NCBI GenBank assembly: GCA_017404335.1
Contig: JAFRCN010000006.1
Location: 1-64,000 of the forward strand
DNA from: Candidatus Saccharimonadota bacterium
GTDB lineage: Bacteria > Patescibacteriota > Saccharimonadia > Saccharimonadales > Saccharimonadaceae
Reading direction: 5' to 3'
DNA: 64,000 bases
The translations under genes were made by a program, and so were the position numbers. The notes below the pieces were generated by a model. That model ran no database searches and had not been told where the DNA came from. It saw only the letters and a list, made by a program, of their open reading frames with translations. Positions 60,434 through 63,895 of the stretch are shown piece by piece. Position 1 is the first letter of the stretch. The number at the start of each line of letters is the position of its first letter.

Positions 60434-60508
60434 GCGGGTATCGTATAGCGGCTATTATGTATCCTTCCCAAGGATGAGATCAGGGTCCGACTCCCTGTAC
60501 CCGCACCA
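60434..60508 (+). tRNA. tRNA-Gly (CCC)
   Basis: Acceptor GCGGGTA/TACCCGC, anticodon stem TATCC/GGATG with loop TTCCCAA (anticodon CCC), T-loop TCCGACT, encoded CCA. The T-loop starts TCCGA rather than TTCGA. A family A palindrome begins at its CCA. Confidence 0.92.
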
Positions 60509-60618
60509 TTAATTCAAGTTAAAAGCCGGTATCTCGGCCTTTTTTCTTGCTCGCTCTATAGATAATAGCGCTTCGCAAGAAGAAAAGACCACTCTACCGG
60601 CTTTTAATCTTGAATTAA
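60506..60618 (+). repeat. palindromic element family A, copy 2, downstream of tRNA-Gly
   Basis: CCATTAATTCAAG / CTTGAATTAAT flanks AAAAGCCGGTA / TACCGGCTTTT, with the same centre (CTTGCTCGCTC, CTTCGCAAGAAG) as copy 1 at 10011. The stem base pair C-G of copy 1 is T-A here. It overlaps the tRNA CCA and ends in T-runs, so it may act as the terminator. The rest of 60619-60662 contains nothing I can support. Confidence 0.82.
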
Positions 60619-60662
60619 TCGTAGTGTCAGACTTTTCTACTCCAGCGCTCCTTTTGCCAGGG

Positions 60663-62428
60663 CTAGGACCCTAGCACACAACGGACAGAGTAACCGCCGT
60701 AGCGATAGCTGCCGCCGGCTGGGTTGATACCGCTCGTATTCGCGTAGAGGTAGTACATGCCGTAGTTATTGCTGCGAGTAGAAGACCACCAGTAGCCGTA
60801 GCTACCCTGAAGGCGCGCCGAGCCATCGTAGAAATAGCCCGAAAGAGGTAGGCGTAGAGCCGTACGGAAAGCTGTATATTGAGAGGGGCTGGCACTACTA
60901 TACTTACTATATAGGTTTTGGAATTCTCCGCTAGTATTGCCAGTAGGTAGTCTCCAACCTTTCGGGCAGATGTCTTCGGTGGCGTTACCGGAACTAGTGC
61001 CGTATGATGTACCGTTGCCGTAGCAGTAGGAACCGGCACTGGCGGCACAGTAGTTGTAGTAGCCACCATACTTCCAGCTAGTAGTATCAACTCCAGATAT
61101 GTTAGTGTCACCACTGGTAGGTAAATTTTTTGAATCCATATTTACTAGTGGAGCAGAGTAGCTATAGCTACTGGTCCAGTTAGAGACTGCGGCGGTAGCA
61201 TATTGATCGGAAGTGGTGCCGGTAGTAGTGCCTTTGAGATAGCCGAGAGTAGTATTAGAAGCATTAGTATTTGATTCATCCATGTCGTTAAGGATCGTAC
61301 TATTAGTGAGGTCTAGGGCGAGGTTATCCAGCATCCAGTAATTATCATCCGCTAGTTTGCCGATGACGTATTTTGTTTCATCGCGTGCATCACAGACTGT
61401 TGCAGTACTGCCTATATTCGGAAGAAGCGTACCAATATTAGACGAAGAAAGGCTCTGCATAGTAGTGTAGCCTGTACAGATTTCCTTCTCCCACATCGCA
61501 TAAAGCTTAATATTGTTAGCCCCAGTTTGGTTTAACAAGATAGTCCCGCCTGGCTTATAAGAATGTCCGCTAGCACAAGTATCGTTATTTCCGCTCTTTG
61601 TGGTCGGTTGGTCACACCAGCCAGTGAATTTGTAACCAGATCTAGTGGGAGTGTTTGTAGTACCCGAAGGAATAGTAGCTGTTGCGTCATTAGAAGAACC
61701 GTCTAGGATGTTTACCGGCATGTTTTCTACAGTATTTTCACTAAACTCCATCGTAAAGGGGATATTGTTTCCTACTACGGCAAAGACGAAGACGTTGGTG
61801 TAACTTCCGACTGTCGCGAAGGGACTAACTTTCGCACCAAGGGTAACTTCATATTCATTTGTAGTTTGGTTAGGTTCGGAGGTTACGTCAATTATTCGTC
61901 CAGACGTTCCAGGCGTTGGTAAGAAGTCTACGTTGTTGGCAGAATCCAGTTTACTTGGTTTATAGCCCCAAATACCTTTACAGTTAGAAGTTTCGGTAAT
62001 CTCAGAACAATCGGATAATCCGAGTGAAGTAGCGAGGTTAGAGTTAGATAAATCAGCATTTCTAAAATCACTTAGAGAAGTAGTGCTAGCAATAGATTGG
62101 AGATAAGAGTTTCCGTTCTTTAAACGTCCAGGAGTAATAGAATCGCTAGCTTTTATGCTTAATGTGTAGCCTGAGATATGGTCGGTGGAGACTCCAATTG
62201 TCATTCCACTAGATTCTATGAAAGTACCAGAAGGAGTAGCAGTAGGAGCGATATTTGCTGTAACGGCATTTTCGGAGAGAGTAATAGTAAGAGTACTATC
62301 GGTAGCAAAAACGGAAGGAGTTAGAAGAAATGCAAAAGCTATATATATATATATATCGGTAGGTTCTTGAATAATCTATTTGTAAGATTTAAATTCTCTA
62401 GATAATTAGGCTTGTGACCTTTAGACAT
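60663..62428 (-). pseudogene. secreted Fib_succ_major/InlB-repeat protein, out of frame at an (AT)8 tract
   Basis: The ATG at 62428 follows AGAAAGGAG by 5-6 nt and opens MSKGHKPNYLENLNLTNRLF. The (AT)8 tract (62341-62356) then leads into TAG. The body of the gene lies in another frame: signal-peptide core AFAFLLTPSVFA, a long secreted domain, an InlB B-like repeat (GYKFTGWCDQPTTKSG..YAMWEK) and a C-terminal Fib_succ_major domain (CPKGWRLPTGN, YWWSSTRSNNYGMYY, YSVRCVLGS). Seven or ten AT units would join both parts into a ~588-residue secreted protein. Phase variation is the likely reason. Confidence 0.85.
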
Positions 62429-62507
62429 GAAAGCTCCTTTCTATAATTCCCTAACGCTCCCCTCTTAGCTTGCATGGCTTAGCGTTACCGTTTTGTTTTA
62501 TATTCCT

Positions 62508-62535
62508 ATTATACCAAGCTACGAAAAAATGTAAA
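62508..62535 (-). promoter_or_regulatory. promoter of the (AT)n surface-protein gene
   Basis: TTTACA (62530-62535) and TATAAT (62508-62513) on the minus strand, 16 nt apart. The ~80-nt leader holds nested inverted repeats TAACGCT / AGCGTTA and CTTAGC / GCTAAG (about 62446-62490). Confidence 0.75.
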
Positions 62536-62641: not shown

Positions 62642-63895
62642 ATGAGCGCACGACTGATTTCTTTATTTGCGGGTTGCATTAAAACGTTTTTTTTCGGTGA
62701 GGTTTGCGATACTTGCGACGGAAAGGCGATTTATAGTCTGCTCGCGGCGATTATCCGGACTTTAGCTATCGGAGTGGGGATTTTGGCGGTGATTGGGATT
62801 ATAGTGACGGGGATTTTGTACCTGAAGTCTTCGGGCAACGCCGCAAAAAAACTAAAGGCGCGGTCGCGCTTAATCAACGTCGGAATTGGTATTATTATAT
62901 ATATCATATTATTCGGGATTGCGGAATTTTTGATACCTGGGGGCGTAGTCTCGCATCCGCTTACCTCAACCGACGAGACAGCGAGATGCCCAGAAGTAAC
63001 TCACACTGATACGAATTTGCGACGAGCGGGGAGTCCAGGGGATACGAGCGGGACTTCGCCGGATAGTCCTTCCAGTAGCCAGGGCGGTATCGCAGACCGG
63101 ACACATTTAAAGGGTTCGGCGCCGAAAATTGCAAAAAAATCGAGTTCGTATTCGAGTAAGGGCAAGACTCGGTCGTATGTATATATTAATATTGAAAATG
63201 CAATACCGTATATTTATTACGATGCGAGTGGGAACTTTGCTTCAATAGTTAGCAAAATTCAAAAAGGCAGGTCTAATATTTTAGTTGTTTCCAACTCTTA
63301 TCTGAATACGGGGCCAATAATCGCAAACCAGAAAATTGCGTTCGGGAAAAAGTACGGAAGCAAGCCACACCAATTATTCGTCGTAGACGAGAAAGGCAAT
63401 GTCGGGTACGCACCGCACAGGACAGCACCGAGCGATATGTTGGCTGGAAATTTTGCATTTACCGATGCTAGTACTGGAGAGACCACAACCGGACATAAAA
63501 TTTTTTCAGCGATGACGGGTTTTGGAATTTTTTTCTTAAACAATAAAGCTGATTGGCAATTTGAGCCTCCGGTTAACAAAAGACAACGTACAATACTTTG
63601 TACAAAAAGTAACGGGAGCTTTGTCTTAATAAATATGGCAAAAGACCAGAGGAACGGAAGCGGTTGGGGGTGGAACGCAAAGGAGATGGAGGCGATAGCT
63701 AGCAAGCATGGTTGTTTTTCGGCGTATAATTTCGATGGAGGAGCTTCGACCGAGCTAGCTTACCGATATAAAACTAACTCGCAATTTAATTATAGCGCCG
63801 AGACTTCGGCGTCAAAATCGCTAGGCAAAAGCGCGCGAGGATTAAGAGGGTATCTAGTTTTTACTTCTGACAATAATCCGCCTTACGTAAGGTAG
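62642..63895 (+). CDS. VirB2-like membrane domain fused to a phosphodiester glycosidase domain
   Basis: 417 residues. The N-terminal ~110 residues have a Cys pair (EVCDTCDGKAIYSLL) and two helices in a VirB2/TrbC pilin-like arrangement (IGVGILAVIGIIVTGILYLK). A Ser/Gly/Pro linker leads to a C-terminal DUF2233/NAGPA-type domain. Its last motifs are MAKDQRNGSGWGWNAKEMEAI, AYNFDGGASTELAYRY (the NxDGGxS motif) and a conserved Gly. The enzyme would cleave sugar-1-phosphodiesters on the outer surface. No Shine-Dalgarno is visible before the ATG. Confidence 0.8.
   Translation: MSARLISLFAGCIKTFFFGEVCDTCDGKAIYSLLAAIIRTLAIGVGILAVIGIIVTGILYLKSSGNAAKKLKARSRLINVGIGIIIYIILFGIAEFLIPGGVVSHPLTSTDETARCPEVTHTDTNLRRAGSPGDTSGTSPDSPSSSQGGIADRTHLKGSAPKIAKKSSSYSSKGKTRSYVYINIENAIPYIYYDASGNFASIVSKIQKGRSNILVVSNSYLNTGPIIANQKIAFGKKYGSKPHQLFVVDEKGNVGYAPHRTAPSDMLAGNFAFTDASTGETTTGHKIFSAMTGFGIFFLNNKADWQFEPPVNKRQRTILCTKSNGSFVLINMAKDQRNGSGWGWNAKEMEAIASKHGCFSAYNFDGGASTELAYRYKTNSQFNYSAETSASKSLGKSARGLRGYLVFTSDNNPPYVR

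Follow-up and report, generated by a model that had tools for sequence, protein, structure and literature searches.

The window gene and its AT tract

The window, a stretch of 64,000 nucleotides from a Candidatus Saccharimonadota bacterium (assembly GCA_017404335.1, contig JAFRCN010000006.1, positions 1 to 64,000 of the forward strand), carries on its minus strand a gene whose start codon, ATG 62428, follows a Shine-Dalgarno sequence and leads through MSKGHKPNYLENLNLTNRLFKNLP into an (AT)8 repeat, where that frame ends at TAG (62341–62339). The features of this gene, hereafter the window gene, are as follows.

62508–62535, minus strand: sigma-70-like promoter TTTACA-16-TATAAT with extended -10 (11/12 matches; consensus match only)
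62453–62486, minus strand: inverted repeat AACGCT...AGCGTT in the 5′ UTR (from alignment)
62434–62440, minus strand: Shine-Dalgarno sequence AAAGGAG (from sequence)
62339–62428, minus strand: OFF product as assembled, ATG to TAG, MSKGHKPNYLENLNLTNRLFKNLPIYIYI and stop (from sequence and alignment)
62341–62356, minus strand: (AT)8 tract where the hydrophobic core of the signal peptide begins (from sequence)
62304–62339, minus strand: remaining signal peptide AFAFLLTPSVFA, cleavage expected before TDS (from hydropathy and a paralogue)
60663–62339, minus strand: open frame of 558 codons that, at (AT)8, is not in register with the ATG (ORF translation)
61482–61649, minus strand: Listeria-Bacteroides repeat (TIGR02543), residues 231–286 (22.8 bits, cut-off 20.95)
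60666–61472, minus strand: FISUMP domain (TIGR02145), C-type-lectin-like predicted fold (47.8 bits, cut-off 41.65)
60655–60855, minus strand: DGR variable region (VR), aligned ungapped over 201 bp to template repeat G000:C2:3434–3634 (minus strand)

The 5′ end is thus as the original prediction described it, with a good Shine-Dalgarno sequence (62440–62434) ahead of ATG 62428, to which the 11/12 promoter-like site can be added, and with (AT)8 (62356–62341) running into TAG. In a register other than that of the ATG, the same DNA reads GCTTTTGCATTTCTTCTAACTCCTTCCGTTTTTGCT^ACCGATAGT (AFAFLLTPSVFA^TDS, the caret marking cleavage) and stays open as far as the stop at 60663, for a mature protein of about 546 residues. 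The remainder had been said to lie in another frame without a start of its own; no ATG, GTG or TTG was found upstream of the mature domain in the main frame, and the assembled register of the gene is OFF. The remainder's length, given as 510 codons, is in fact 558; the figure of 510 fits an ORF of 513 codons that opens at an internal ATG (62204) within the mature domain. Signal peptides were judged from hydropathy and from a paralogue in the same genome, a sister gene on contig C3 that starts MSIGHK... and whose signal peptide ends ...VAFATDSTLTITLSENAVTAN. This paralogue agrees with the predicted joined product, cleaved before TDS, and indicates that the joined reading is the true gene. AT repeats encode Ile-Tyr in every register, so the tract is itself free of stops, and most of the residues it adds to the signal-peptide core are hydrophobic.

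The leader of the window gene has similar counterparts in two sister genes, with an AGCGCT...AGCGCT form in an (AT)9 copy described below, and the inverted repeats of the window gene and the (AT)9 copy may represent a hairpin common to the subfamily. Downstream of the gene, between the VR and a tRNA gene, lies a long inverted repeat (TTAATTCAAG.TTAAAAGCCGGTA ... TACCGGCTTTTAACTTGAATTAA; 60508–60625), and the divergent neighbour (62642–63895) encodes a T4SS-pilin-like membrane segment followed by a phosphodiester glycosidase (NAGPA) domain.

Protein domains and predicted fold

FISUMP and List_Bact_rpt were the only domain matches of the window protein, PF09603 scoring 25.2 bits, under its cut-off of 33.9. 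Structurally, the FISUMP part was predicted over 269 residues with a pLDDT of 91.7, and Foldseek alone returned no significant match for this domain. Structure matches from a second-look alignment fell mostly into one fold class, C-type-lectin-like. They comprised Lcl (Z 7.2; 2.9 Å, 109 aligned), the adhesin InvE (Z 6.9), EgtB (Z 6.7) and two DGR variable proteins, TvpA (Z 6.5; 4.2 Å, 158 aligned) and Mtd (Z 5.2; 3.9 Å, 118 aligned), at Z values that alone could reflect a common arrangement. When the full-length protein was used for a fold search, the main matches paired its N-terminal domain with pilin-like folds, at a Z of about 7 that is too weak to use. This N-terminal mature domain (residues 14–191; window 60666–62303) resembles pilin and fimbrial subunits at that Z of about 7, and could give a weak hint of donor-strand assembly.

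Template repeats, variable regions and selection

The VR comprises the last ~65 codons of the window gene and contains no stop. Over its 201 bp it differs from the template at 29 positions, 28 of which are template adenines (p = 1e-15). Near the template (C2:3434–3634) lies a DGR-type RT gene (RVT_1 at C2:2407–3105) with the motif IGNFTSQ, the RT form expected for DGRs. Because its 3′ end pairs with a template on contig C2, the window gene is a remote DGR target; this status and the predicted C-type-lectin-like end are features beyond the original prediction. In the aligned frame the template repeat holds 23 AAY codons, in which adenine changes at the first two positions cannot produce a stop.

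The window genome encodes four RT genes, every one of which neighbours a FISUMP gene and a short duplicate of the 3′ end of that gene, and the differences located at adenines in the four template repeat/VR pairs number 18/18, 26/30, 13/13 and 18/20. Four DGR cassettes, consisting of FISUMP target, reverse transcriptase and template repeat, are present in one 0.69-Mb genome, and that on C2 has an extra ORF between target and RT.

G000:C2, 1–3640: DGR cassette (L097)
G000:C1, 14970–18308: DGR cassette (L096)
G000:C5, 1814–4784: DGR cassette (L107)
G000:C5, 70972–75306: DGR cassette (L110)

Evolutionarily, the window gene and the C2 cassette's own target are separated by a dS of 0.02 inside the VR and of 1.29 over the other aligned positions; dN/dS is 0.22 beyond the VR, with 0.05 at the N-terminus. 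The low dS of the VR, set beside a dN/dS of 0.22 elsewhere, indicates a recent rewriting of the VR within a gene that is otherwise old and constrained by purifying selection, which argues against a plain pseudogene.

AT tracts in the window genome and across the genus

The window genome (685,718 bp, 6 contigs, 45% GC) was read entire for simple repeats. The AT tract of the window gene measures 17 bases with the flanking A, the next longest alternating AT run in the genome 11, and the only other simple repeats above thresholds were one T9 and one (GGT)5. Near the start of its coding sequence the window gene, intact in other respects, thus has a simple repeat that is exceptional for the genome and whose length determines the frame. 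In this genome's other FISUMP genes, where the 5′ end is present, the signal peptide is open and free of repeats.

Across the genus, we collected 69 unique AT runs of at least 7 units from 174 genomes, a partial census because a second search pattern matched only 14-base T..A runs. A loose signal-peptide classifier gave ~16–19% positives at random positions, and a strict test was used in its place: an ATG at most 90 bases upstream of the run and itself closely preceded by an in-frame stop, an n-region containing Lys/Arg, a hydrophobic core and a small-x-Ala site after the run, and at least 50 open codons. Long AT runs passed in 21 of 69 cases, against 109 of 3000 random positions (3.6%; Fisher 1.4e-13) and 12 of 375 short AT runs of the window genome (5e-11); the other 48 failed, many of them lying in other contexts. 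The registers of the 21 signal-peptide runs (9 ON, 12 OFF) agree with one-third ON (p = 0.36), in counts that include several paralogues of one genome (G044) and are not independent, and this mix is compatible with free slippage rather than with a frame kept by selection. Nearly all AT-tract genes with a readable 3′ end are FISUMP genes.

Of the 174 genus genomes, 34 had runs of at least 8 AT units; elsewhere in the order, such runs were present in 2 of 143 genomes. One of the latter two, in G192 from another family of the order, lies again in a signal peptide, which suggests that the AT-tract device is wider than the genus; here (AT)11 stands out of frame in the signal peptide of a 351-residue secreted protein (L237, G192:C9). 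Other contexts were seen as well: (AT)14 directly before GAAAGAAGAA at the start of a 199-codon ORF, in surroundings unlike signal peptides (L236, G309:C1), and in-frame runs at the start of a multi-membrane protein (L186, G085:C1) and of a protein with a subtilase-type propeptide match (L145, G130:C8). Many AT-tract genes of other species (L071, L086, L130, L214 and L225) carry a TATAAT-like box within a few bases upstream of their ATG, suggestive of leaderless transcripts; unlike these, the window gene has a leader with a Shine-Dalgarno sequence.

The link between AT tract and DGR was also found in other genomes. In G064, an AT-tract gene of 554 residues with (AT)10, ON as assembled, adjoins its own DGR and is its target, with 32 of 33 VR/template mismatches at template adenines (p = 4e-21). 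In G044, where the template is on another contig, the corresponding fractions were 20/30 for one AT-tract gene (p = 6e-8) and 21/44 for another (p = 2e-4). Within the stretches examined of G069, G065, G105, G053 and G075, no AT-tract gene was tied to a template repeat, and the search for RT genes in G010, G130, G155, G158 and G181 gave no match.

Tract length and contig ends

Contig G075:C13 (L195, L234) carries nearly the same signal-peptide DNA as the window gene with (AT)9, at positions 175–193, in place of (AT)8, and is also OFF. The two, sister copies rather than strains of one locus, are one AT unit apart; two G181 paralogues, again not strains of one locus, have 8 and 11 units. Exact 141-base words link the ends of G075:C13 to contig ends of the window genome: its end continues window contig C4, and its start coincides with that of C3. 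C1 and C2, each bearing a 3′ half with a DGR, also have one such word in common. Since 141 bases is the length expected of an assembly k-mer, G075:C13, whose GC content (40.5%) is below that of the window genome, probably belongs to the window organism or a near strain and was misbinned. If it is from the window organism, the contig ends make it likely that the (AT)9 gene is the 5′ part of an adjacent DGR target, one of the two on C1 and C2.

Proposed explanation and alternatives

We propose, with a probability of roughly 80%, that the window gene encodes a slipped-strand phase-variable, DGR-diversified secreted adhesin with two built-in variation devices. AT units would be gained and lost by slipped-strand events within the signal-peptide codons, moving the start in and out of frame with the mature protein, so that the number of units would switch the gene ON or OFF, (AT)8 being an OFF state. 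The DGR on another contig would copy the template repeat, with random adenine changes, into the last ~65 codons, redrawing the binding face of the C-type-lectin-like domain. AT slippage would accordingly set whether the protein is made, and the DGR what the ON protein binds. Read directly from the DNA are the tract and its registers, the promoter-like site, the signal-peptide-like start, the adenine-specific template/VR pairing, the purifying selection elsewhere in the gene and the recurrence across the genus. From these we infer that living cells switch the gene, and that the protein is secreted and adheres to a partner cell, a host surface or phage. The original call of a probable phase-variable secreted protein is supported by a tract that is an outlier in its genome, by tracts at the same place in related genes of the genus with both ON and OFF lengths, by the one-unit difference between copies and by purifying selection.

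A plain pseudogene, that is, a fixed frameshift in a decaying surface-protein gene, would fit the OFF register as assembled, the main frame without a start and the open signal peptides of the other FISUMP genes in this genome whose 5′ end is present. We consider it unlikely, as 558 codons are open with no further lesion, dN/dS is low outside the VR and lowest at the N-terminus, the VR has been rewritten recently from the template without taking up a stop, and the same type of tract is ON in other species.

The OFF register might also be an error in the AT run, made in sequencing or assembly, with the real gene constantly in frame, given that these are metagenome-type assemblies in which repeats are error-prone and that contigs break inside the FISUMP gene family. 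Yet the run is the single long one in its genome, which speaks against a general problem with AT runs, and the genus has mixed lengths at one gene position, the (AT)9 copy being out of frame too; we regard such a slip as very improbable. Equally improbable is slippage of RNA polymerase or the ribosome on the AT run, restoring the frame for constant low expression in place of DNA switching: AU repeats can indeed re-pair after a two-base slip, but this would leave unexplained both the differing tract lengths of related copies and the ON registers in ~40% of loci.

Beyond the single gene, the slipped-strand and DGR reading may extend to a two-layer diversity system of obligate epibionts, which we hold as possible at somewhat less than even odds. 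The DGR would write new binding faces into paralogous lectin-like adhesins in cis and in trans, AT slippage would pick those displayed, and silent OFF copies would be rewritten unseen and later turned ON.

Relation to known systems and significance

Each half of the proposed device, the repeat phase switch and the DGR target, is of a known kind. Neisseria opa genes carry (CTCTT)n in the leader peptide (PMC3960869), and the window gene resembles them in having a short repeat in signal-peptide codons, a frame set by repeat number and membership of a multigene family of adhesins, here putative ones. It differs in its unit (AT, encoding Ile-Tyr, rather than CTCTT), in being also a DGR target and in its occurrence in Saccharibacteria, and its product is a FISUMP protein rather than an Opa beta-barrel, making it opa-like in mode of action only. 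Similarly, Helicobacter pylori oipA has (CT)n in its signal peptide (PMC10564699), a dinucleotide repeat in signal-peptide codons with slipped-strand ON/OFF control of an adhesin, whereas unit and protein family differ and oipA is without a DGR.

Variable proteins of DGRs include Mtd, TvpA and FISUMP and DUF1566 targets with C-type lectin folds (PMC4159848), remote variable proteins are known (PMC7517822), and CPR bacteria are rich in DGRs (PMC8144416). The window gene shares with these systems an RT and template repeat and an adenine-specific C-terminal VR, its predicted fold may likewise be C-type-lectin-like, and, like the remote variable proteins (PMC7517822), it is a target away from its cassette. 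In contrast to these variable proteins, its 5′ end bears a putative simple-repeat ON/OFF switch. In the literature searched, we found no report of a DGR combined with slipped-strand variation in one gene, nor of slipped-strand variation in Patescibacteria.

The finding would add a simple-repeat phase switch to DGR targets. Where such a tract has been assembled in an OFF register, automatic annotation may overlook the signal peptide of the protein. Candidate roles of the window protein are partner choice, phage evasion or immune evasion. Saccharibacteria probably live on other bacteria; for keeping and changing partners, the gene family would give them new binding specificities together with a cheap display switch, and both variation devices would fit genomes of ~0.7 Mb.
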